Source: an uncultured Oscillochloris sp. (GTDB lineage: Bacteria; Chloroflexota; Chloroflexia; Chloroflexales; Chloroflexaceae). From it: a DNA stretch of 35,102 nt. The notes under the pieces were generated by a model. The model made no database searches. It saw only the letters and a list, made by a program, of their open reading frames with translations, and was not told the origin of the DNA. This document shows positions 9,326-33,499 of the stretch, piece after piece. The first letter of the stretch is position 1. Every line of letters starts with the position of its first letter. Made by a program: the position numbers and the translations under genes. The stretch lies in assembly GCA_903916565.1 (NCBI GenBank), contig CAIWXH010000648.1, forward strand, positions 1 to 35,102, read 5' to 3'.

Positions 9326-10525
9326 ATGCGAACCCTCATCTTTACGGGCAAAGGCGGCGTCGGCAAAACGAGCGTGGCTGCGTCCACTGCTCTGCGTGCG
9401 GCCGATATGGGTCTGCGTACCCTGGTGATGAGTACCGACCCGGCCCACAGTCTTGCTGACTCGCTCGATCTCGAAGGCCCGCTTGGTCCTGAGCCTGTGC
9501 GTGTAGCGCCTAACCTTGACGCCCTTGAGGTTAGTATTTACCACGATATCGAAAACAACTGGGGTATTGTGCGCGAGCACTTTTCGCAGTTGATGGCCGA
9601 GCAGGGCGTCGAAGGTATTCTCGCTGACGAGATGAGCGTTCTTCCTGGTATGGAGGAGGCGTTTCCGCTCCTTCGGATCAAGAAGCACAAAGATCAGGGC
9701 GATTATGATCTGCTCGTGATCGACTGTGCCCCTACTGGTGAGACGTTGCGCCTGCTCTCGGCGCCCGAGACCTTCAAGTGGGCGATGGGGATGCTGCGCG
9801 GGGCTGAGAAGTTTGTGATCAAGCCGCTCCTGCGGCCGATGAGCAAGATTAACCCCACGCTGAGCAAGATGATTGCCCCGACCGAAGTCTACGACGCGGT
9901 CGATGACATGTTCTCGCAGATGGTCGGCGTCACCGAGACACTCTCCAACCCGCTTGAGACTTCGGTGCGCTTGGTCATGAACCCCGAGAAGATGGTGATT
10001 AAGGAGAGCCAGCGTGCGCTCACCTATCTCTCCATGTATGGTATGACCGTTGACACGGTAGTGGTTAATAAAATCCTGCCGGTGGATCAGGACAGTGGGT
10101 ACCTCAATCACTGGAAGGACGTGCAGCAGCGCTATCTTCTGGATGTGCAGCACTCGTTCTCGCCGGTGCCGATTCGCCATGTGCCCTACTACGCCGAAGA
10201 GGTGGTGGGCCTGGTGAAGTTGCGGGCGATGGGGCTTGATATCTATGGCGATAGCGATCCTACGGCGATTGTTTACAAAGAGTCGCCGATGGACATCGCC
10301 AAGTTGCCTGATGGGACGTATCGCGTTAAGCTTAAGCTTCCCTTCGCTGACGTCAGTCAGCTTGATCTGTTTCAGAATGGCGATGAGTTGGTCATCCAGA
10401 TCGGCGACTTCCGCCGCATCATGACCCTGCCTACGAGCCTGGCGGGCCAGGAGGCAGGGCAGGCCGAGATGGAAGGTGACTGGCTTATTGTTCCGTTCTT
10501 TGCGGCGAGCGGCGTTCGCCGTTAG
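9326..10525 (+). CDS. ArsA/GET3-family ATPase, first of three in the chlorosome island
   Basis: The 399-residue protein is a P-loop ATPase of the ArsA/GET3 class: deviant Walker A GKGGVGKTS (8-16), switch I STDPAHSLADS (36-46), and a nucleotide-site motif VIDCAPTGET (131-140). The last about 70 residues (LPDGTYRVKLKLPF..., IMTLPTSL) form a small HSP20-like beta domain, as in bacterial ArsA relatives. Arsenic pumps normally come with arsB/arsC, and none is here. GET3 homologues instead deliver tail-anchored or hydrophobic proteins to membranes. Its position 117 nt before csmA suggests an ATP-driven role in chlorosome protein targeting or assembly; that role is inferred. GGAAAGG precedes the ATG by 5 nt. 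Confidence 0.9.
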   Translation: MRTLIFTGKGGVGKTSVAASTALRAADMGLRTLVMSTDPAHSLADSLDLEGPLGPEPVRVAPNLDALEVSIYHDIENNWGIVREHFSQLMAEQGVEGILADEMSVLPGMEEAFPLLRIKKHKDQGDYDLLVIDCAPTGETLRLLSAPETFKWAMGMLRGAEKFVIKPLLRPMSKINPTLSKMIAPTEVYDAVDDMFSQMVGVTETLSNPLETSVRLVMNPEKMVIKESQRALTYLSMYGMTVDTVVVNKILPVDQDSGYLNHWKDVQQRYLLDVQHSFSPVPIRHVPYYAEEVVGLVKLRAMGLDIYGDSDPTAIVYKESPMDIAKLPDGTYRVKLKLPFADVSQLDLFQNGDELVIQIGDFRRIMTLPTSLAGQEAGQAEMEGDWLIVPFFAASGVRR

Positions 10526-10585
10526 CTCGCGCAGCTCGAGGGTGGCTTCCCCATTGCGCCCTCGGGGTCTTCCACTGGGGTCTAC

Positions 10586-10600
10586 CGGGGCTAAACCCCG
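10586..10600 (+). promoter_or_regulatory. Small stem-loop upstream of csmA
   Basis: CGGGG-CTAAA-CCCCG forms a 5-bp stem 42 nt before the csmA start. It lacks a U-tract, so it may mark an mRNA processing or stabilising site that lets csmA accumulate separately from the ATPase message. The role is speculative. Confidence 0.35.
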
Positions 10601-10642
10601 TAAGCCTATTAGGGTGTACGCTTAGGTTAAGGAGGTGTACGG

Positions 10643-10885
10643 ATGGCCGTTACACGAGGCTGGTTCTCGGAGTCTGCGGGCACGGTCGCGCAGATCGGCG
10701 ACATCATGTTCCAGGGCCACTGGCAGTGGATCTCCAATCTGCTCCAGGGCACGTCGGCTGCGGTCGAGACCATCAACCGCAACGCTTACCCGGGCATTGC
10801 CCGCAGCGGCAGCGGTGAGGGTGTTTTCACCACTTCGGATGTGGGCTTCCGCCCGAAGCGCATTCGGTCGCGTTTCACTCGCTAG
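10643..10885 (+). CDS. csmA: Chlorosome baseplate protein CsmA precursor
   Basis: The 80-residue product matches Chloroflexus CsmA as I know it: MAVTRGWFSE start, the IGDIMFQGHWQW core with H26 (H25 after Met removal) as the BChl a ligand, the INRNAYPG segment, and a basic tail FRPKRIRSRF. CsmA forms the paracrystalline baseplate that takes energy from the chlorosome interior to the membrane-bound reaction centres. In Chloroflexus the mature protein is about 51 residues, so the last 27 or so form a propeptide that is removed; the same boundary would fall just after YPGI here. A very strong AAGGAGGTG at 10629-10637 and an immediate downstream terminator fit high expression. Confidence 0.95.
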   Translation: MAVTRGWFSESAGTVAQIGDIMFQGHWQWISNLLQGTSAAVETINRNAYPGIARSGSGEGVFTTSDVGFRPKRIRSRFTR

Positions 10886-10898
10886 TAGTGAGCGGGGG

Positions 10899-10950
10899 AC
10901 TGGATACAGGGTACAGTCGCAACGCTCTGTATCTTGTATCCAGTTTTCTC
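10899..10950 (+). terminator. Rho-independent terminator after csmA
   Basis: An 18-bp stem is formed by 10899-10916 (ACTGGATACAGGGTACAG) and 10927-10944, with two G-U pairs and a 10-nt loop, followed directly by TTTTCTC. It begins 14 nt after the csmA stop. Partial read-through would feed the downstream island genes at a lower level. Confidence 0.8.
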
Positions 10951-10961
10951 TATCTTCGACC

Positions 10962-12191
10962 ATGATTAGTTTGCTTTACCACAGTCATACCGTCGTCCCC
11001 AATCATCTCACCGAACTCGAGGCGATGAGCCTGATCGAGTCCGATGAGCAGATTTTGATTGCCCTCGACGGTGTGTTGCTCGACGGCAATGGGCGTCGCC
11101 TGAGCGGTCCTACGCTCCACGACTATTGTCTGGTGACGAGTCTGCGTGTAATCCTTTGGGCACGCGACTATGGTCGCCACCTCTGCTGCGCCTTCCCGCT
11201 GGCTGAATTGACGACCGTTGAAGGGGCGGGGGTTGACCCGATCCATGCCCAGATCCAGCTGTCTTTTGCTGCCCCTGATGAGGACGATCAGCACTTCACC
11301 CTGACCCTGCTTCCACTCGCTAATCTCCAGGCCGCGCTGACCCTGTTACGTACGGCTAGTGAGACGGCACGCGAGTTGGCCGCCGAGGGTGTCGATTCAC
11401 GCGAGGCTGGTGTCGAGATTATGGCTGTTCTTGGCGAGCAGATCTATGGTCATGTCGATGGTCTGCGCCCCGGTGAGACCCCCTATCGCTGGCCCGGTGC
11501 CGCCGCTAGTCATAGTCAGCCCGTTAGCCCCGCCCCGGCCTTCGCCCATGACCCCGCCAGTTTGCCGCCTGGTCAGTTCTACACCGCTAGTCGCCTTGCG
11601 CGCTCAGCATGGGATACGCTCCGTCGCTCGATCCGTGAGGCCGATTTGCCGATTGAGCTGAATAGCGGTAGCCTGCGCGAGTTGACTGAGGCCGTCCGTG
11701 CCATCAATGAACTTGTGCATACGGTCGCTACGAATCCGAGCGCCCAGCAGATGGCTATGGCCTTTATCAATCGTAATCAGGGTGGCCCCGCTGCTCCCGC
11801 CGCTACCCCGCCTGAGACTGCCCAGCGCGGTACAACGCAGCGCCCGGTCACGCCAAGTTCGGCTCCCGCTGCGGCGGCTGGCGCTGCCGATGCGACGGCA
11901 AGCGCCTTCTATCACGAGATTCCCCTGCGCCGTCGTGGTGCCCCGCATCCCGGACAAGGTACGACCGAGCCTTCAGTTGAGCGACCCGTCGAGCCGACGC
12001 AGCATGGCTCTGGCGCGTACCAAGCCGACGCCCCCGTCCCTGACCGTCGCGAGATTCCGCTCCGTCGCCGTGGCCCGGATACGGTAGCCCCTCGACCGTT
12101 GGCTCATGGACACTTGCCCGCCGCAGTCAGCGGCTCGGGCGATGCTGGCCTAGACGACGGCTCGCCGACGCTCGATAACCGCCACCAGTAA
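10962..12191 (+). CDS. PH-like-domain protein, chlorosome island paralogue 1
   Basis: The product (409 residues) has an N-terminal globular domain (about 20-150) shared with the next gene: SDEQILIALDGVLLDGNGRR, LVTSLRVILWARDYG and FPLAELTTVEG, a pattern resembling bacterial PH-like domains. A helical middle part includes WDTLRRSIREADLP and TEAVRAINELVHTVA. The tail is low-complexity Pro/Ala with two copies of the motif EIPLRRRG. Similar pairs can be expected in Chloroflexus chlorosome clusters; it may be an envelope or assembly factor, but I cannot assign a Csm letter. ATG 10962 lacks a good ribosome-binding site; ATG 11025 (MSLIESDEQ) is an alternative. It directly follows the csmA terminator. 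Confidence 0.75.
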   Translation: MISLLYHSHTVVPNHLTELEAMSLIESDEQILIALDGVLLDGNGRRLSGPTLHDYCLVTSLRVILWARDYGRHLCCAFPLAELTTVEGAGVDPIHAQIQLSFAAPDEDDQHFTLTLLPLANLQAALTLLRTASETARELAAEGVDSREAGVEIMAVLGEQIYGHVDGLRPGETPYRWPGAAASHSQPVSPAPAFAHDPASLPPGQFYTASRLARSAWDTLRRSIREADLPIELNSGSLRELTEAVRAINELVHTVATNPSAQQMAMAFINRNQGGPAAPAATPPETAQRGTTQRPVTPSSAPAAAAGAADATASAFYHEIPLRRRGAPHPGQGTTEPSVERPVEPTQHGSGAYQADAPVPDRREIPLRRRGPDTVAPRPLAHGHLPAAVSGSGDAGLDDGSPTLDNRHQ

Positions 12192-12261
12192 CGACGCGCG
12201 TGCGTCATGGCACCTTGCCGCCACCAGTGGCAGTCAAACAGGCACTAGACAGGGAATGACT

Positions 12262-13749
12262 ATGAGCACTCGCCCGTATCTCGGCGTTAATGTTAACGCG
12301 GCCAGCGCCGATGAAGTGCGCGTTCGCGGACTGCTTGAGGATGGCGAAACGCTGCTTGCGCTCTTCGATGGCGTGCTGCTTGACCAAAATCGCCGCCGTG
12401 TCGGTGGCATTGCCCTCTCTGACTTTGTTATCCTCACTGATCGCCGCGTGATCACATGGGCGCGTGGCCTCTTTAACGATGCGGTCGATAGCTTCCCTTG
12501 GAAGGATGTCGATGTCGTGCAGGCCGAGACCTGGGATCCTTGGCACGGTCGAGTGCATCTGGCCTTCCGTCTACCTAGCATTGCGCCCCGCAAGCGCCGG
12601 ATCGCAGTTCAAGGTATGACTGAGGAGCCTGGTAGCGGCGAACGCTTGGTCATGAATACCCTTGACTATATGCCGGTCGATGATGTCGCCGTTTTTGCCC
12701 GCATGGTCGAGTTGGTAGGTGATCAGATCGTTAATGCGGTCGATAGCGCAGAGTTGATTGCCAATTTCTTCGCTGAGTTCCACCCCAGCGAGCGTGTGTC
12801 GCTTCAGTCGGTTTTCGATACGTCGCCTGAACCCACTGCCCCGGTGCCGGTGCCCGAACTGGTTGCCCAGAAGAGTGCGCGCAAGCGCTGGTGGCAGATT
12901 GGTCGCGCTGGCGAAGAGCAGCAGGAGTTGACGCCGCCCAGCGACTCGAGTAATTTGGTTTCCGCCTACGAGAGCCAGCGTCCTGGCGGTTCTAGCATCG
13001 TTTCCGGCACGCTCGTCGGCAACAATGCTCCGCCTGGGATGTCGGCTAGTGCTACGAACTCGATGCTGATCCAGATGTCTGACCAACTGGGCGTCTACGA
13101 GGTTAGTCGCACGCTGCGCCTTTTCCTTGAGGCACCTCGGCGCATGGCCCGCAGTATTCGCCGCGCTGGCGAGGCCGTGGGCGGAGCCACCGAGATGATG
13201 AGCGGCCTCCAGGACTCGCGGGTGCGGCGTAATGCGATGCGTGGCCTCTATATGTCTGTAGCGCACCAAGAGGCCCAGGGTGGCCCCATGGCGAGCATTG
13301 GCCCAGTCGTGCGGGCGGCGGTGCGTTTTGCCGAGCCGCTTGAGGAAGAGCAGGATCAGCAGCAGGCCTCGCGCCGCGTTCAGGTGCGCTCTAGTGTTAG
13401 GGGGCGCCGGCCCCCAACACCGGTCGAGACTGAGATTGATGAGGCGGCACAGCGGAATGACGAGCCGCGTCAGGCTCCTTCTTTGGTAGATCCGACCGCT
13501 ACCCCAACAGTGACTAGGCCCGACCCGCTGAAGCGCAGTATTAGTGTCCGTAAGGTTGCCCCCCCAACGAGCGAGGCACCCGAGGTGCCCGAAGTGCCCG
13601 AGGATCAGCCACAGCGGGTTGCCCCAGTGCGCCGTATCGCGGTCGGTCGGACGGGTAGTCAGGCCGCCGAACCTGTTCTTAACGGTAATGGCAGGGCAGT
13701 GGGCCAGCATAGCAACGGTGTCCATCGACCAGACGACGAGAATGCCTGA
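12262..13749 (+). CDS. PH-like-domain protein, chlorosome island paralogue 2
   Basis: The 495-residue product repeats the N-terminal domain of its neighbour: DGETLLALFDGVLLDQNRRR, FVILTDRRVITWARG, FPWKDVDVV. The middle part contains amphipathic helices (SRTLRLFLEAPRRMARSIRRAGEAVGGATEMM, split by short turns) that could lie on a lipid surface. The C-terminal third is disordered-looking, with KRSISVRKVAPP and RRIAVGRTG, similar in spacing to the EIPLRRRG motifs of paralogue 1. The second of two close ATGs (12262) is chosen because AGGGA lies 6 nt before it and touches the first. Probably a product of local duplication; function unknown, likely chlorosome envelope or assembly. Confidence 0.75.
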   Translation: MSTRPYLGVNVNAASADEVRVRGLLEDGETLLALFDGVLLDQNRRRVGGIALSDFVILTDRRVITWARGLFNDAVDSFPWKDVDVVQAETWDPWHGRVHLAFRLPSIAPRKRRIAVQGMTEEPGSGERLVMNTLDYMPVDDVAVFARMVELVGDQIVNAVDSAELIANFFAEFHPSERVSLQSVFDTSPEPTAPVPVPELVAQKSARKRWWQIGRAGEEQQELTPPSDSSNLVSAYESQRPGGSSIVSGTLVGNNAPPGMSASATNSMLIQMSDQLGVYEVSRTLRLFLEAPRRMARSIRRAGEAVGGATEMMSGLQDSRVRRNAMRGLYMSVAHQEAQGGPMASIGPVVRAAVRFAEPLEEEQDQQQASRRVQVRSSVRGRRPPTPVETEIDEAAQRNDEPRQAPSLVDPTATPTVTRPDPLKRSISVRKVAPPTSEAPEVPEVPEDQPQRVAPVRRIAVGRTGSQAAEPVLNGNGRAVGQHSNGVHRPDDENA

Positions 13750-13818
13750 GCTACGCTGTGTGATTGGTGTCGGGTCAGGTATCCTGGCATCAATCGTACA
13801 TCCTGATCGTATATCTAC

Positions 13819-15051
13819 ATGACGCGTGTCATTATCTACTCGGGTAAGGGCGGCACTGGCAAGACCACGATTTCGGCGTCTACGGCGACCCTGCTGGCGC
13901 GTTCTGGTCGCCGGACGCTGGTGCTTTCAAGCGACCCGGCCCACTCGCTCGCCGACGCAATCGGTGTGCCGATCAGCCGTGACCGGCCAACTGCCATCAT
14001 TCCAGGACTCTATGGCCTTGAAGTGGACACGACCTACGAGTGGCGCCATAACTTGGGCGGTTTCCAGCAATTTGTTGCCTCGACCTATTCGAACCGTGGG
14101 GTTGACCGCTCGACCGCAGCCGAGTTGGCTAATCAGCCCGGCCTCGATGAGATTCTTGCGCTCCAGCGGGTGATGGATGAGGCCCAGAGCGGGCGGTGGG
14201 ACGCAATTGTCCTTGATACGGCACCAACCGGTAATACCCTGCGCCTGCTCGCGTACCCTGAGATGATTATCGGCGGTGACGCGGGCAAGAAGTTCTTCCG
14301 GGTCTATCGCGGTCTAGCCAATATTGCTAGACCCTTTAAGCGCGACCTGCCGAACGACCGCTTCTTCGACGAGGTTGGTACGCTCCTTGAGCGTATGGAT
14401 CAGTTGGCGAATTTCTTGCTCAGCCCCGAGATCTCGTTGCGCCTCGTGCTCAATCCTGAGAAGTTACCGCTACTTGAGACCCGCCGCGCCTATACCTTCC
14501 TCAACCTCTACGGGATGATGGTTGATGCGGTCATGGTGAATAAGATTCTGCCCCGCCGCTCTGACCTTGGCCCCTACTTCGACTACTGGGTTAGTCTCCA
14601 GCGCGGCTATCTCCAAGAGATTGATGACAGCTTCGCACCCACGCCGATCTTCCGCACGGTGCTGCAGGAAGGCGAGCCAATTGGCATCCCGGCGCTTGAG
14701 GCGATTGGGCGGGCCACGTTTGGCGAGACCGATGCAGGCGCGTTGCTCTTCGACGAGCGGCCGATCTGGCTTGAGCAGTGGAATGAAGAGGGCGAACTAG
14801 GCAAGTACGAGCTGTGTATGAAGTTGCCCTTTGTCGAAGCGGGTGAGCCGTTTCAGCTCTCGCGCAGTGGCCCGGATCTTGGGGTGAGTGTCGGTCGCTT
14901 GCAGCGTACGATTGCCCTGCCCCGGATCCTCTATGACTGTGGGATGGGGCAACATCGTTACGAGAGCGGCGTGCTGCGCCTGGAGTTCCGAGAGGGTGAG
15001 GGCCTTACTCCCGCCGATGAGTCCGATGAACTGCGGGTTGAGGCCGCCTGA
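13819..15051 (+). CDS. ArsA/GET3-family ATPase, second of three
   Basis: This 410-residue ATPase keeps every nucleotide-site motif: GKGGTGKTT (9-17), SSDPAHSLADA, LDTAPTGNTLRLL, and a C-terminal HSP20-like beta domain (ELCMKLPFVEAGEPFQLSRS...). It is clearly paralogous to the protein at 9326-10525, sharing LVLNPEKL...RRAYTFLNLYGMMVDAVMVNKILP-type blocks in the same order. It begins 69 nt after the PH-like gene, without an obvious Shine-Dalgarno. GET3/ArsA proteins work as dimers or pseudo-dimers, so it may pair with the first or the third copy. No arsenic genes are nearby, so metalloid transport is unlikely. Confidence 0.9.
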   Translation: MTRVIIYSGKGGTGKTTISASTATLLARSGRRTLVLSSDPAHSLADAIGVPISRDRPTAIIPGLYGLEVDTTYEWRHNLGGFQQFVASTYSNRGVDRSTAAELANQPGLDEILALQRVMDEAQSGRWDAIVLDTAPTGNTLRLLAYPEMIIGGDAGKKFFRVYRGLANIARPFKRDLPNDRFFDEVGTLLERMDQLANFLLSPEISLRLVLNPEKLPLLETRRAYTFLNLYGMMVDAVMVNKILPRRSDLGPYFDYWVSLQRGYLQEIDDSFAPTPIFRTVLQEGEPIGIPALEAIGRATFGETDAGALLFDERPIWLEQWNEEGELGKYELCMKLPFVEAGEPFQLSRSGPDLGVSVGRLQRTIALPRILYDCGMGQHRYESGVLRLEFREGEGLTPADESDELRVEAA

Positions 15052-15108
15052 GGTGTTTCTCGTTTGTACCTTGCCAGGACTTGACGGGCTACGGCGTACG
15101 GACGGATC

Positions 15109-16218
15109 ATGCAAATCCTGATCTTCTCGGGTTACAACCAGATTCTTCAGAGCGCGGCAGCCGTGGCGACCGCCTGTCACGCCGCCCGGCGCGGCAAGCG
15201 CGTGTTGCTTGCCTCGGCTGGGCCAGCCCATCTCACTGGCGCAATGCTTGGGCAGAGCCTGGGTCCGCGCCCACTTGAGCTTGAGTCACATCTGGCTGCG
15301 TTGGAGATCAATTCGATTGAAGAGCTCGGGACGCTCTGGGATGCCACACGGGGCGGTATCCGTGGCGTGATGACCTCGCGCCTGCGTGAAATTGGCCCGG
15401 AAGAGTTGCCCGCCTTCCCTGGGATCGATGCGATTGGGGCGATTATTGTCGCCGACCGTGCCCGCAAGATGAATCGCTTTGACCTAATGGTTGTCGATGG
15501 GCCGATGCCCAATAGTCTGACCGGGGCGCTCTCGCTGCCCGATGCCTTGCGCTGGCTCACACGGCAGATCTTTGGCCTTGATCGTGGGCCTGGTCAGTCA
15601 CGTAGCTCGCAAGAGGCCGCGATTTTTCCTGCGGCGCTGATCGCACCATCGGCCCAGGCTCCGCTACAGAGTCTTCGTATCTACCTAGAGGATCAGCGTG
15701 CGAGCATTAGCACCGATACCGGTGCCCGCGTGCGGCTAGTCGCTACACCTGAAGAGCTAGCCTTGCCATCGGTGCGCGCTTCGCTTACGGCACTTGGCCT
15801 GTATGGCATGGCTTGTGATGAGTTACTTGTCATCGGTCAACCGGCTCAAGTTGATGATGTCTATCGTCACGAATTTTCACCCCAGACGAGTAAAGCCCGT
15901 CCCGTTCTACGGGTCAGTGAGTTGCCTAGTGCCCCAGCCATTCGTGATACCTGGGCGCTGCGCGGCGCAGCGCTCTATCGTGACGGTGACGTCTTCGACC
16001 ACACAAGCGCTGTGCGCTCCAGCGCACATGAGCGCGAGGTCAAGCTTTACATTCCCTTCCTTGATCCGAAGATGCTCGATATCGCACTCGCCAATGAGGA
16101 GGTGCTGGTGCGTCTCGGCACCCTCCGCCGCCATGTGCTGCTTCCCGGTATCGCGGCTGGAGGGCGCCTGCGGGCTAAGGTTGACCCCGACGAGGTGCTG
16201 CGACTCTGGATTGAGTAG
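15109..16218 (+). CDS. ArsA-like protein lacking Walker A (predicted pseudo-ATPase)
   Basis: The 369-residue protein aligns by eye with the two ATPases before it, but its nucleotide site is gone. GKGGxGKTS is replaced by GYNQILQSA (8-16), SxDPAHSLAD by ASAGPAHLTGA, and the APTG motif by VVDGPMPNS. Other landmarks remain: RLVATPEELALPSVRASLTALGLYGM matches the NPEK...LxxYGM block in register, and the C-terminal beta domain (REVKLYIPFLDPKM..., RLGTLRRHVLLPG) is intact. The frame is open with normal codon use, so it is a maintained protein rather than a decayed gene. A regulatory or scaffold subunit of an ArsA heteromer is the best guess. It starts 57 nt after the second ATPase. Confidence 0.85.
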   Translation: MQILIFSGYNQILQSAAAVATACHAARRGKRVLLASAGPAHLTGAMLGQSLGPRPLELESHLAALEINSIEELGTLWDATRGGIRGVMTSRLREIGPEELPAFPGIDAIGAIIVADRARKMNRFDLMVVDGPMPNSLTGALSLPDALRWLTRQIFGLDRGPGQSRSSQEAAIFPAALIAPSAQAPLQSLRIYLEDQRASISTDTGARVRLVATPEELALPSVRASLTALGLYGMACDELLVIGQPAQVDDVYRHEFSPQTSKARPVLRVSELPSAPAIRDTWALRGAALYRDGDVFDHTSAVRSSAHEREVKLYIPFLDPKMLDIALANEEVLVRLGTLRRHVLLPGIAAGGRLRAKVDPDEVLRLWIE

Positions 16219-16284
16219 CGGTCGAGTATAGGTTATGGCGCTTGTGCAGTCGGCCAGGGTTACGACTTGCTACAGAGGCTAACG

Positions 16285-17289
16285 ATGGGCAGTTCAGTGC
16301 CGAACACAGCAGAGGTTGAGCGCCCGGCCCTCAACCTTCAGGCTGCTACCGAGAAATACCGAACGTACCGCGCTGAGGTCGATGCTCATCTGGCTGGACA
16401 CCTGAGCAGCACAGAGCGGGAGCGACTTGAGGCTGCGCTACGCCTGATGGACGAGGCGCGCTTTGTCGAGATCAACGGGGTTGTCCATCACTACATGGAT
16501 TATGGGCCACGCGATGGTGAACCCCTCGTGCTGATCCATGGTTGGGACTGCTCGTCGTATTGGTGGCATCATATTATTGATCCCCTGGTGGCCGTAGGGT
16601 ATCGCATTATCCTGTACGATCTGAAGGGCCATGGGTTCTCAGATAGCGACCCGCAGATGGGCTACCGAGTGGCCGACTTCAGCGATGATCTGAAGGCGCT
16701 AGGTGATGCCCTAAAACTGCCGGCGCACCACGTAGCAGCTTTCTCGCTGGGTGCCTTCGTAGCCCTGCACTATGCGGCGAACAACGCGGCGCGGGTGCGT
16801 TCACTGGTTTTCTTTAACTTCAGCCTGCTCACCTATAATGCAGTGGCCGCCGCCATGACCCCGGCGACGCTGGATTTCGTCTTCAACAAGATGCTCCGCC
16901 CCATCGAGAAGCGTGGGCTGTGGTGGATTCCGTATATCTACGCCCGGCTGGTGCTGTCCAAGAATGCCGCTTCGGTGAGCGATGTCAAGCTGGCGACCTT
17001 GAGCCTGCGCTGCTGCGATCCCCAGGCGATCCGCATCTCGGCGGAAGAGTTGGCCCGCCGCGATGTGCTTGACCCGTTGCCCGATCAGATGCGGCGCGTG
17101 CAACAGCCAACCCTGCTGGTGGCGGGGTCAGGTGACCCGATTATGCGCCCTCAAGATGGACGCAAGCTGATGCAGTTGGCGCCCCATGGTCAATACATTG
17201 AGGTGCCGCGCTGCGGTCACCTTATTCTGTTTGAGTTGCCCGATCAGGTGGTACAGATCTTGCGACTCTTTCTGCGTGAGGTTCGTTAG
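16285..17289 (+). CDS. Alpha/beta hydrolase (chlorosome island)
   Basis: The 334-residue product has an N-terminal helical extension of about 55 residues, then an alpha/beta hydrolase fold. HGWD (85-88) gives the oxyanion region, YDLKGHGFSD the strand-4 loop, AFSLGAF the nucleophile elbow with S154 (Ala replaces the usual first Gly), GSGDPIM the acid D284, and RCGHLIL the base H312. The substrate could be an ester or thioester, for instance a lipid or pigment ester; BchO-like hydrolases also occur in photosynthesis clusters but I cannot assign that name. ATG 16285 is preferred over an upstream TTG because AGAGG lies 6 nt before it. Confidence 0.85.
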   Translation: MGSSVPNTAEVERPALNLQAATEKYRTYRAEVDAHLAGHLSSTERERLEAALRLMDEARFVEINGVVHHYMDYGPRDGEPLVLIHGWDCSSYWWHHIIDPLVAVGYRIILYDLKGHGFSDSDPQMGYRVADFSDDLKALGDALKLPAHHVAAFSLGAFVALHYAANNAARVRSLVFFNFSLLTYNAVAAAMTPATLDFVFNKMLRPIEKRGLWWIPYIYARLVLSKNAASVSDVKLATLSLRCCDPQAIRISAEELARRDVLDPLPDQMRRVQQPTLLVAGSGDPIMRPQDGRKLMQLAPHGQYIEVPRCGHLILFELPDQVVQILRLFLREVR

Positions 17290-17385: not shown

Positions 17386-18270
17386 ATGCAGTTGCTCCTA
17401 CGCGCTAACGGCCAGCAAGCGGCAATTACGATGGAAAGCGCCGGTGATCAGGTGCTTGTGGTTGGTGAGCATCGTTACAAGCCAGTGCAGATAGCTCGTA
17501 AAGTGCGGCGTTACGCTACGCAGATGTGGGGTAGCGAGATCGGTTCCGAGATTCTGAGCGAGCGCCTCACCTTCGAGGCGCTTGATGGTGGACGCCCTAG
17601 CGGGCCTTGGACTGACAGCGGCAGTTTCTCGCCGCGTAGCGGTTCGTTTGTGAGCCTTGGCCGGTGGGACGAGGACAGCACGGTGGGCATCGCACTCCAC
17701 GAATTGGCGCACGAGATGCACCTGCGGCGGGGCGGCTACGACTTCTCCGACGGCGTGCTGCGCGAGGCCGTCTCGCTGCTTGCCGAGCGCGAGGCGGGCT
17801 TGATGCGGAGCTTCGAGCGCGAACCGTATCATACCGCGAGCCACTTGATCGCCCAACTCAGCGAGTTGCCCGCCTTTGGTAATCAGTCCTTTGTGAAGCG
17901 CTGGAACGAGCTCATGGATCTTACCAATGACGCGGCGCTGGCCGACTTGGTCAACTTCTACCTTGATAAGAGCGAGCGCCTCGGCTTTGATCGCTGGCTC
18001 AAGCGATTTACCGATAACCTTGAGCTGCGCGATGCCTTGTTGAGTAAGCTTGCGGTAACGAGCTTGCGCTACAGCCTTGAGTTGCGCCGTCAACTGATTG
18101 GGAATGTTGTGCGTTGCGGCGCAGAGATCACGCCCGACCAGATCGTCCGTGTGCTTGACTCGGTTGTCACGCTCGACCGGCGTTATCCGAACGATGACTT
18201 GGGCCGGATTATCGACTTTTGCTTTGCGCCACACGCTCGTCGGAAACGGCGGCTTTTTGCCTTCGGGTAA
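17386..18270 (+). CDS. Putative zinc metallopeptidase (HExxH) in the chlorosome island
   Basis: I do not recognise the family, but the 294-residue protein carries HELAHEMH with H105-E106-x2-H109 in a predicted helix. E127 or E134 in LREAVSLLAERE lies 18 or 25 residues further and could be the third ligand, as in gluzincin peptidases. The N-terminal 100 residues are beta-rich and polar; the C-terminal half is helical and basic (ARRKRRLF near the end). There is no signal peptide or membrane segment, so it should act in the cytoplasm, where chlorosomes are. Within an island that encodes a CsmA propeptide, it is a natural candidate for the maturation protease; this is inference. GAAGAAGG precedes the ATG. 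Confidence 0.7.
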   Translation: MQLLLRANGQQAAITMESAGDQVLVVGEHRYKPVQIARKVRRYATQMWGSEIGSEILSERLTFEALDGGRPSGPWTDSGSFSPRSGSFVSLGRWDEDSTVGIALHELAHEMHLRRGGYDFSDGVLREAVSLLAEREAGLMRSFEREPYHTASHLIAQLSELPAFGNQSFVKRWNELMDLTNDAALADLVNFYLDKSERLGFDRWLKRFTDNLELRDALLSKLAVTSLRYSLELRRQLIGNVVRCGAEITPDQIVRVLDSVVTLDRRYPNDDLGRIIDFCFAPHARRKRRLFAFG

Positions 18271-20902: not shown

Positions 20903-21099
20903 ATGCATATCAGCGATCCGAACAAGCCCAACTACGACTACCTGACTCGCTACGTGTGCGGGATCGAGCTTGATTTCGGTGTGCTGGAGTTCAAGGATCA
21001 CGGGATCTACCCGGATGTGCTTCGCGAGATCGGCTTCACCGATGTGGCGTTCGCCGAGCAGTACGACCACGTACTCTACCACAGGCGGTTAAGGTCTAG
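20903..21099 (+). pseudogene. bchU: bchU remnant: C-terminal fragment of bacteriochlorophyllide d C-20 methyltransferase
   Basis: BchU methylates C-20 of the BChl d macrocycle to give BChl c. Only its last about 64 residues are present. MHISDPNKPNYDYL, then GVLEFKDHGIYPDVLREIG and YDHVLY, align with the end of Chlorobium BchU (MVIDDPENPNFDYL..., FSVLGFKEQARY..., YDHLLVQAVKP). The SAM-binding domain is missing, and 5' of the fragment comes the structured-RNA segment; the frame is closed by TGA at 20864. Near the 3' end a 2-nt excess (CA, about 21080-21083) shifts the frame: skipping it restores QAVKV and TAG at 21097-21099, whereas the actual frame runs on to 21184. Two independent lesions argue strongly for a dead gene. 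Confidence 0.85.
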
Positions 21100-21264: not shown

Positions 21265-21576
21265 ATGTCGGAAACCACAGGTGAGGTGCGGGTGCGTAAC
21301 GTTCGCACGAAACGCAGTGAGAACTTGGTGGAGTCCGCGCTGGAATTCGGCGGTGGTGCGCTGCGGATGGGCTTTTCGGTTCTAACCCTCCCCCTGTCGC
21401 TGCTGCCCCCGATCAGCCGCCAGCACATCCAGAATGCGACGAAGGAGTTCGCCTACGCTTTCGCGGGTCTGCCGGGCGAGCTTGTTGGGGTGGCGAGCAA
21501 GATTGTTGATGACTGGGCCGCCGATAGCGCAGCGGCCGATAAGAAGGCCCCGAAGGACGAACTGACTGCTGGCTAG
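21265..21576 (+). CDS. csmM: Chlorosome envelope protein, CsmM-like (about 11 kDa)
   Basis: The 103-residue product fits the 11-kDa chlorosome protein of Chloroflexus in size and position beside a second related protein. Its core reads LVESALEFGGGALRM, LPLSLLPPISRQHI and FAGLPGELVGVASKIVDDW, and the same order of motifs recurs in the next gene. The core helices are amphipathic, suited to the lipid monolayer that surrounds chlorosomes; there is no signal peptide. A near-ideal AAGGAGGT (21252-21259) implies strong translation. The M/N naming is based on size and order, so the two symbols could be reversed. Confidence 0.75.
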   Translation: MSETTGEVRVRNVRTKRSENLVESALEFGGGALRMGFSVLTLPLSLLPPISRQHIQNATKEFAYAFAGLPGELVGVASKIVDDWAADSAAADKKAPKDELTAG

Positions 21577-31721: not shown

Positions 31722-32414
31722 CTACGGCTTGGCCGGGAAGATGACAATCTTGCGGTTCTCGCCATCGCCGGAGCTTTCCGTATAGATCGTCTTATCCTCG
31801 CGCAAGGCCAAGTGGACAATGCGGCGCTCGTAGGCGGCCATCGGTTCAAGCATCATCGGGCGCCCGGTCTGCCGGACGCGCTCGGCCATCCGGCGGGCAA
31901 GCCCCTCAAGCGACTCTTGGCGGCGCTGGCGATAGTTGCCGACATCGACGACGATCTGGGGCCATTTCTGGACGCGGCGGCTGACCAGCAGATTGAGCAG
32001 GAACTGGAGCGAGCGGAGGGTTTCACCGCGACGACCAATCAGCAAGCCCATCGCCTCTTCATCAGCGCCCTCGACGTGCAGGGTGACGGTCTCCTCAATA
32101 TCGCCCTTTTGGCCGGGTACGCGGGTCACCACGGGGGTCACGTAGGCGTGGATGTCCATACGCTCAAGCAGGTCGTCGAGGATGCTTTGGGCAACGCTCT
32201 GAACCTCTTCGACGCCAGCCTTGTGTGGCGGGGTGGGTGCTGGTGCGGAATCCTCGTCATCATCGACGACGGTAACGCGAACAAGCGCCTCATCGCCCGA
32301 CTCGCCCGCATCCAGCACCGCGATCACCACCTCATCGCGGTCTTTGCCGAGTTGTGCGAGGGCAAGCTCGACGGCTTCCGCAACCGTGCGCGCGCTGATC
32401 TCGATGCTTTTCAT
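31722..32414 (-). CDS. jag: Jag/SpoIIIJ-associated RNA-binding protein
   Basis: The 230-residue product has the Jag_N domain (MKSIEISARTVAEAVELAL), a linker (PAPTPPHK), a KH domain with the GxxG loop as LIGRRGETLRSLQFL, and an R3H domain (MAAYERRIVHLALRED). Jag (KhpB/EloR) binds RNA and, in Gram-positives, links to cell elongation; its gene usually follows yidC as here, 47 nt downstream. Last gene of the rpmH cluster in this window. Confidence 0.93.
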   Translation of the reverse strand: MKSIEISARTVAEAVELALAQLGKDRDEVVIAVLDAGESGDEALVRVTVVDDDEDSAPAPTPPHKAGVEEVQSVAQSILDDLLERMDIHAYVTPVVTRVPGQKGDIEETVTLHVEGADEEAMGLLIGRRGETLRSLQFLLNLLVSRRVQKWPQIVVDVGNYRQRRQESLEGLARRMAERVRQTGRPMMLEPMAAYERRIVHLALREDKTIYTESSGDGENRKIVIFPAKP

Positions 32415-32461
32415 GACAGTTCCTCTTAGGGCGTTAGTGTGAACAATAATGCTAAGGGCTG

Positions 32462-33499
32462 CTACTTCCGCTTGCGCGGGCGGCGCGGATTAACCGACCC
32501 TCGATCCTGACCACGCACCGCGTCAATGGCATCCTCAACGGGGTCATTGGCCATTGGCGCAGGCCCGTCAGCGATGGCAGCGGCGACAACCGGCTCTTTC
32601 GTCTCGGTCAGCGGGCGCATGACGCCCCAGAAATCGCTGCGGGTGACTGCCGGTGCTGCGGTGTCGCTCTCGGCACTTGCCCCAGCGGAAGCGGTGAGGC
32701 TGTTTGGCGTCCCCGAGGGCTTACCGTCGGGCGGCAGAAACTTGAGGTAGTTCGCCAGAGAACCCCAGCCACTGGTGAAGTACTGCTGGATGATGCCGAC
32801 CAAGCTGCTGACGACCCAATAGAGTACCGCGCCCTGCGGGAAGGTGAAGGCGATGTAGCCGAAGACGAGGGGCATAAACATCATCGTCTGGGTCATCGCC
32901 TTTTGCTGCGGGTCTTGGACGCGGGGCGTCGCCATCACGGTCTGAAGAAACTGAAAGAGGATCGAGCAGGTTGGCAGGATGAGGTAGATGAAACTGCCAG
33001 CGGATGTCCAGACCACATGGCCGGTCGCACCAAAGGAGGTGCCGCCAACCTCAATCAGCCCGAACAACTTTTGCGCGAAGATTGTCTTGATCGCATCGTT
33101 CTCAAGCCAAGCCAAAGCCCCAGGACTCAGGTTGACACGGCCCGCCTCGCCGCCGAAGAGGTGGTAGACCGCCTGATAGACCCCAAAGAAGATCGGCAAC
33201 TGGAGGAGAACCGGCAGACAGCCACCAACCGGGTTGATCTTTTGCTCCCGGTAGAGCTTCATCGTCTCTTCCTGGAGCTTCTGGGGATCTTTGCCGTGCT
33301 TACGCTGCAGCTCCTTGATCAGCGGCTGCAGTTCCTGCATCTTGCGGCTGGAGCGGATCGAGGTGAGCGTGAGCGGCAGAATGACCAGGCGGGCGGTGAC
33401 CGTGAACAGGATGATCCCGAGCGCGACATTGCCCGTAATTGATGAAAACCAGATCAGGGCCTGCTCAAGCAGACCGACAAACCAGGACCACAGCGGCAT
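32462..33499 (-). CDS. yidC: Membrane protein insertase YidC/OxaI
   Basis: The 345-residue product starts with a TM helix then GNVALGIILFTVTARLVILPLT, where the conserved Arg of the hydrophilic groove sits. LQRKHGKDPQKLQEETMKLYREQKINPVGGCLPVLLQLPIF is the typical coiled hairpin and second helix region (described in parts). Later helices include FMPLVFGYIAFTFPQGAVLYWV. The tail is basic (RRPRKRK), common in YidC forms that help ribosomes dock without a large periplasmic domain. Inserts proteins into the membrane alone or with SecYEG. No yidD lies between it and rnpA. Confidence 0.95.
   Translation of the reverse strand: MPLWSWFVGLLEQALIWFSSITGNVALGIILFTVTARLVILPLTLTSIRSSRKMQELQPLIKELQRKHGKDPQKLQEETMKLYREQKINPVGGCLPVLLQLPIFFGVYQAVYHLFGGEAGRVNLSPGALAWLENDAIKTIFAQKLFGLIEVGGTSFGATGHVVWTSAGSFIYLILPTCSILFQFLQTVMATPRVQDPQQKAMTQTMMFMPLVFGYIAFTFPQGAVLYWVVSSLVGIIQQYFTSGWGSLANYLKFLPPDGKPSGTPNSLTASAGASAESDTAAPAVTRSDFWGVMRPLTETKEPVVAAAIADGPAPMANDPVEDAIDAVRGQDRGSVNPRRPRKRK

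Follow-up and report, generated by a model that had tools for sequence, protein, structure and literature searches.

In a 35,102-nucleotide stretch of DNA from an uncultured Oscillochloris sp. (assembly GCA_903916565.1, contig CAIWXH010000648.1; hereafter the window), three genes of the ArsA/Get3 family, which we call ArsA-1, ArsA-2 and ArsA-3, lie around csmA, encoding the base-plate protein of the chlorosome, and two genes for PH-like proteins. The chlorosome is the largest known light-harvesting antenna. A trio of an ATPase gene, csmA and a PH-like gene has been kept in all four groups of chlorosome-bearing bacteria, and hence probably helps to build this antenna. Strong support for a dedication of these genes to the chlorosome comes from their phylogenetic profile, from synteny across phyla and from the clade structure of the ATPases. 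We incline to the view that these Get3d-type ATPases form a chaperone or loader system that serves the chlorosome specifically.

Gene cluster and co-occurrence with csmA

The cluster contains the following features:

9326 to 10525, + strand: ArsA-1, Get3/ArsA-family ATPase of 399 amino acids with a C-terminal HSP20-like (alpha-crystallin) domain (Pfam, motifs, clade A in the tree)
10643 to 10885, + strand: csmA, chlorosome base-plate protein precursor of 80 amino acids (PF02043, 3.7e-25; 65-90% identity to the csmA of relatives)
10894 to 10951, + strand: long hairpin directly 3' of csmA (dG -35.2 kcal/mol, z -5.2)
10962 to 12191, + strand: PH-like protein 1, N-terminal domain of the PH-fold family and a variable tail (family hidden Markov model and alignment; start set by homology)
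12256 to 13749, + strand: PH-like protein 2, 497 amino acids, N-terminal PH fold and a disordered-looking Pro/Arg-rich tail (family alignment, AlphaFold2, fold search)
13819 to 15051, + strand: ArsA-2, ATPase with intact motifs and an HSP20-like domain, member of a second clade restricted to chlorosome bacteria (Pfam, motifs, tree)
15109 to 16218, + strand: ArsA-3, predicted conserved pseudo-ATPase that keeps the HSP20-like domain (Pfam, motif alignment; nearest solved structure NosGet3d, 3igf)
16267 to 17289, + strand: alpha/beta hydrolase, which invariably comes next in the gene order (Pfam and cluster comparison)
17386 to 18270, + strand: protein family with an invariant HELAH...E (zinc-metallopeptidase-like) motif (alignment)

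The six genes from ArsA-1 to ArsA-3 all run in the same direction, with intergenic gaps of 57-117 bases, and are followed by the hydrolase and the HELAH-motif protein. An earlier note on this DNA had described three ArsA/GET3-family genes bracketing csmA and two PH-like genes on one strand with short gaps, and Pfam, the coordinates and related loci bear this out. The order of all eight genes was identical in 22 of the 27 related Chloroflexales loci, the remaining five being cut by contig ends. Such an arrangement is far beyond chance. The source genome itself belongs to a member of the Chloroflexales with chlorosomes, as indicated by csmA in the window and two type-II reaction-centre genes elsewhere in the genome.

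We compared the distribution of the ATPases with that of csmA, which occurred in 20 of 301 Chloroflexota genomes. ArsA-1 was confined to the same 20 genomes (61-100% identity; best match elsewhere 48%), and so was ArsA-2 (55-100%; best match elsewhere 41%). Co-occurrence with csmA was therefore 20 of 20 for both genes, against 0 of the 281 csmA-less genomes, where the 20 csmA-bearing genomes represent one family and one separate class-mate lineage rather than 20 independent events. Nine Chloroflexales carried type-II reaction-centre genes (PF00124) without csmA (G012, G015, G016, G019, G027, G028, G030, G036 and G039). Neither ArsA-1 nor ArsA-2 was found in these nine phototrophs. Their best match to ArsA-1 did not exceed 40%, and those of their ArsA homologues that were placed in a tree all lay outside clades A and B, which are described below. 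A general function in photosynthesis was thus rejected; the genes follow chlorosomes, not photosynthesis.

Co-occurrence with csmA, and absence of the trio from Chloroflexota without chlorosomes, had been the prediction of the earlier note. The trio was indeed not found in the 281 csmA-less genomes, but one of them (G019) keeps ArsA-3 together with csmM and csmN. In this phototroph of the same family, which lacks csmA, ArsA-1 and ArsA-2, the three genes adjoin an NDH2-like gene (locus L207, 7875-11369). Here ArsA-3 may serve CsmM and CsmN rather than CsmA, or the cluster may be a remnant of a chlorosome.

In the Chlorobi, csmA was present in 96 of the 98 genomes, all but one with a strong ArsA-1-type gene, and the Chlorobi thus offered no contrast. 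In the Blastocatellia csmA was found in eight of the 162 genomes, all eight with ArsA-1 at 49-56% identity.

Conservation across chlorosome lineages

A genome search with ArsA-1 yielded 80 loci, nearly all from lineages that are chlorosome-bearing by name: besides the Chloroflexales, identities were 61% in Chloroheliaceae, 52-57% in Chlorobi and 54-55% in Chloracidobacterium. The order ArsA, csmA, PH was found in Chloroflexales, Chloroheliales, Chlorobi and Chloracidobacterium, that is, in four lineages of three phyla. ArsA-1, csmA and a PH-like gene adjoin each other in Chloroheliaceae, in Chloracidobacterium and in one early Chlorobiales genome, and PF02043 confirmed the identity of csmA at the Chloroheliaceae and Chloracidobacterium loci. 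A second Chloroheliales-like genome also carries the cassette. The locus of Chlorobiaceae and Thermochlorobacter consists, in order, of an ArsA gene, csmC (PF11098), csmA, a PH-like gene and another ArsA gene. The top-scoring matches to ArsA-1 in the Chlorobi are paralogues that do not adjoin csmA; the csmA-linked copy is a different gene.

In a bootstrapped tree of 80 sequences, clade A (support 99/97) united the csmA-linked ArsA-1 of all four lineages with the Chlorobi paralogues and four sequences from csmA-less Blastocatellia. Clade B (100/100) contained ArsA-2 and its relatives from Chloroheliales, Chloracidobacterium and Chlorobi, and was restricted to chlorosome bacteria. The second csmA-side ATPase of the Chlorobi, located downstream, grouped with sequences of non-chlorosome Chloroflexales in a general clade. 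Hence, its identification as ArsA-2 was rejected, and its recruitment was a separate event. In Chloracidobacterium, the clade-B gene comes after fmoA (PF02327, 2.3e-85) and a pscA-like gene.

Two further loci were recorded. A green sulfur bacterium (L174, 5595-6950 and 10043-10830) has one more ArsA paralogue, at a distance of 3-4 kb from a CsmD-like gene and from a second gene with PF02043, which is CsmE-like. In Thermochlorobacter (L178, 1256-7045), a clade-A ATPase domain forms the N-terminus of an open frame of 1,930 residues.

Domains and motifs of the ArsA proteins

Pfam ArsA_ATPase and ArsA_HSP20 domains were detected in all three proteins (6.8e-91 for ArsA-1, 1.5e-67 for ArsA-2 and 1.5e-18 for ArsA-3), the C-terminal HSP20-like domain (PF17886) at 1.2e-22, 1.6e-14 and 9.2e-06, respectively. 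None of the examined orthologues of ArsA-1 and ArsA-2 has lost the Walker A motif (GKGGVGKT or GKGGTGKT), switch I (DPAHS) or switch II. In ArsA-3, the sequence SGYNQILQS stands where GKGGVGKT is expected, so that the Walker A lysine and threonine are gone. Because the Walker A lysine and the switch-I aspartate are missing from every chlorosome-lineage orthologue aligned, despite otherwise wide sequence divergence, ArsA-3 is, judged by its motifs, a conserved pseudo-ATPase for which the name ATPase is not warranted. The trio of ATPases proposed in the earlier note thus stands for ArsA-1 and ArsA-2 only.

The deviant Walker A motif that serves as a criterion for Get3d was likewise present in ArsA-1 and ArsA-2 and absent from ArsA-3. 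Scores for the GET3/TRC40 model TIGR00345 were 249 bits for ArsA-1 and 206 bits for ArsA-2, both above the cut-off of 135, and 59 bits for ArsA-3, below it. The NCBIfam NosAFP equivalog gave 140, 72 and 85 bits for ArsA-1, ArsA-2 and ArsA-3, all below its cut-off of 325. In a tree that included NosGet3d, this protein joined the pseudo group of the ArsA-3 type, but its branch had a length of 3.2 and its placement is unsure.

The Pfam family name, and nothing else, would make these proteins arsenite pump ATPases. This is almost inconceivable. The proteins have a single ATPase domain, no CXXC motif and only one or two cysteines each (one in ArsA-1), and their TIGR04291 scores (98, 77 and 18 bits) are far below the cut-off of 650. 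The larger annotated genes of the window include no arsenic genes, in agreement with the earlier note; a genuine ars locus with arsR, arsD and a two-domain arsA is located on another contig of the same genome (C350; ArsR and ArsD named from sequence motifs). An arsenic function was accordingly rejected.

PH-like proteins and possible clients

Neither PH-like protein had a Pfam match. AlphaFold2 predicted a PH-like fold for the N-terminal domain of PH-like protein 2 (predicted local distance difference test, pLDDT, 90.8), with the seven-stranded barrel and C-terminal helix cap that define the PH superfamily. The best matches of this model in the PDB were mostly PH and GLUE domains, with probabilities near 1 but E-values that were all at least 1.2e-3. 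Across all chlorosome lineages, the PH-like proteins form a single family, whose alignment shows five invariant residues.

A PH fold suits membrane anchoring, and the ATPases belong to the same SIMIBI-type deviant Walker A class as ParA and MinD. The cluster might thus be a positioning system of the McdA type, which spaces chlorosomes on the membrane and shares them out when the cell divides, the PH proteins providing the membrane anchor. We consider this quite unlikely, since the ArsA/Get3 branch and the retained HSP20-like domain point to client binding, and no McdB- or MinE-like partner was identified.

No transmembrane segment was found in the Csm or PH proteins of the cluster (maximum 19-residue hydropathy <1.5), which is in keeping with the lipid monolayer. 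For the chaperone or loader system that we favour, the expected clients are hence pigment or proteins of amphipathic character, CsmA among them, and loading of either fits better than a literal tail-anchored-protein route, which is unlikely.

If the client were pigment, the ATPases would carry bacteriochlorophyll a, or a quinone or lipid, and supply apo-CsmA and apo-FMO with it. ArsA-1 adjoins csmA everywhere and clade B adjoins fmoA and pscA in Chloracidobacterium; CsmA and FMO, the neighbours of clades A and B, are both bacteriochlorophyll a proteins. The lack of transmembrane segments would also suit such a role, as would the hydrophobic client sites of the Get3 family (PMC10248533). Pigment loading is nevertheless rather unlikely, since clade B is kept in Chloroflexales without FMO. 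Furthermore, we know of no Get3 or ArsA protein that binds tetrapyrroles.

Proposed role in chlorosome assembly

The Get3d proteins of Arabidopsis and Nostoc hydrolyse ATP and bind a hydrophobic client (PMC10248533), which makes a client-binding ATPase the natural model for the chaperone or loader reading. Dimers of ArsA-1, and of ArsA-2 or of ArsA-2 with the inactive ArsA-3, would bind the amphipathic helices of newly made CsmA. Other clients may be envelope or antenna apoproteins, CsmC, CsmM and CsmN, as well as FMO in Chloracidobacterium. The ATPases would hold these clients soluble, and ATP hydrolysis would release them to the base plate or lipid monolayer as it grows; there, the PH-fold protein could be the adaptor for docking. 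ArsA-3 may have a structural or regulatory role. In its broadest form, held more tentatively, the proposal is that a universal chlorosome-assembly machine, consisting of a Get3d-type ATPase and a PH-fold monolayer adaptor, loads base-plate or antenna apoproteins, and that a dead third subunit was gained in the Chloroflexales. To our knowledge, no targeting pathway serves this type of membrane in chlorosome bacteria. Of the targeting role suggested in the earlier note, the dedication to chlorosomes is upheld by profile, synteny and clades, whereas the pseudo-ATPase and the lack of transmembrane segments speak against tail-anchored targeting in the literal sense.

Besides this lack of membrane-spanning clients, several observations weigh against a dedicated assembly role. 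The distribution of clade A initially looked complete as chlorosome-only, but was weakened by the four csmA-less Blastocatellia with a clade-A gene (three at 48-50% identity, one at 46%). Since the clade-A gene stands beside other genes there, such as OsmC, clade A can have another job; these genes may reflect an ancestral, non-chlorosome role of the clade. An OsmC-type gene adjoins the ATPase in three of the four loci (L220, L221, L222 and L223). Green sulfur bacteria possess additional clade-A and clade-B ATPases distant from csm genes. The linkage of the ATPases to csmA could also result partly from horizontal transfer of one chlorosome cassette.

Taken further, the ATPases would be passive passengers, general Get3d-like chaperones carried along by the horizontal transfer of a chlorosome island, without a task specific to the chlorosome. 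The cassette probably did move between phyla, and the clade-A relatives in csmA-less Blastocatellia agree with this view. Yet, the genes still adjoin csmA in four lineages whose sequences are 50-60% identical, and they are absent from close relatives that retain reaction centres but not csmA, which makes mere passengers very unlikely.

On how proteins reach the chlorosome monolayer and how chlorosomes are assembled, published discussion concerns models of budding and of aggregation, and names no assembly factors (PMC9316378). The three-gene cassette offers candidate assembly factors, also in a genetically tractable species, Chlorobaculum tepidum. It moreover suggests what Get3d proteins may specifically do, where their part in photosynthesis has so far lacked an explanation. 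The occurrence of Get3d in green bacteria is already known, as the 2023 Get3d paper includes proteins from green sulfur and green non-sulfur bacteria, but that paper never mentions chlorosomes or csm genes (PMC10248533). We found no open literature linking the chlorosome with Get3 or an anion-transporting ATPase, with subscription papers and book chapters outside the search, and those papers with both chlorosome and ArsA that were consulted did not make the link to a chlorosome cassette. Hence, the cassette has no report that we found in open papers, although the gene neighbourhood was possibly noticed earlier, for example in genome chapters on green bacteria.

Neighbouring features

Strong stems of differing sequence occur in most relatives at the position of the hairpin 3' of csmA. 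The hairpin is probably an mRNA end or a partial stop that lets csmA exceed the downstream genes; by ending or protecting the csmA mRNA, it may uncouple the very abundant CsmA from them.

The HELAH-motif protein has an invariant HELAHEMH...E motif in at least 22 genomes, always within the cluster. Its AlphaFold2 model was confident, and a fold search against the PDB gave no match. It is a candidate protease for trimming the CsmA precursor.

Further downstream lie two csm genes:

21265 to 21576, + strand: csmM (length and synteny with Chloroflexus; C. aurantiacus gene order in PMC3150298)
21638 to 22078, + strand: csmN (synteny with Chloroflexus; C. aurantiacus gene order in PMC3150298)

At 20903-21082 the window contains a bchU remnant of only the last ~60 residues, 70% identical to its counterpart in Chloroflexus islandicus, and bchK is absent from its usual place. 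This suggests loss of C-20 methylation (bacteriochlorophyll d rather than c) or gene relocation. At 31722-33499, ~16 kb from the ATPases, yidC (PF02096), an insertase of the Oxa1/Get1 superfamily, occurs with jag; both are likely housekeeping genes.

Comparison with known systems

The known chlorosome proteins CsmA, CsmC, CsmM and CsmN share gene clusters with the ArsA ATPases and PH proteins, which are missing from published lists of chlorosome proteins (PMC3150298, PMC9316378). The ArsA arsenite pump has Pfam PF02374 in common with ArsA-1, ArsA-2 and ArsA-3. It consists, however, of two ATPase domains with metalloid-binding cysteines encoded in an ars operon, whereas the proteins described here have one domain, few cysteines and no arsB, arsD or arsR nearby. 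With the targeting ATPase GET3/TRC40, ArsA-1 and ArsA-2 share the catalytic motifs and TIGR00345 scores above the cut-off. In contrast to GET3/TRC40, the ArsA proteins lack the CXXC zinc site and have an extra HSP20-like domain, and the cluster lacks transmembrane clients.

Get3d (Arabidopsis Get3d, 8elf; Nostoc All4481/NosGet3d, 3igf and 8egk) likewise has the ArsA/Get3 fold and a C-terminal alpha-crystallin domain, lacks the zinc CXXC motif and occurs in photosynthetic lineages. Non-phototrophic Chloroflexota, too, commonly carry ArsA proteins that align through the HSP20-like domain; this fits poorly with an origin of Get3d alongside photosynthesis. Compared with Get3d, the chlorosome-specific clades linked to csmA, the PH-fold partners and the predicted pseudo-ATPase are features of the cluster described here.

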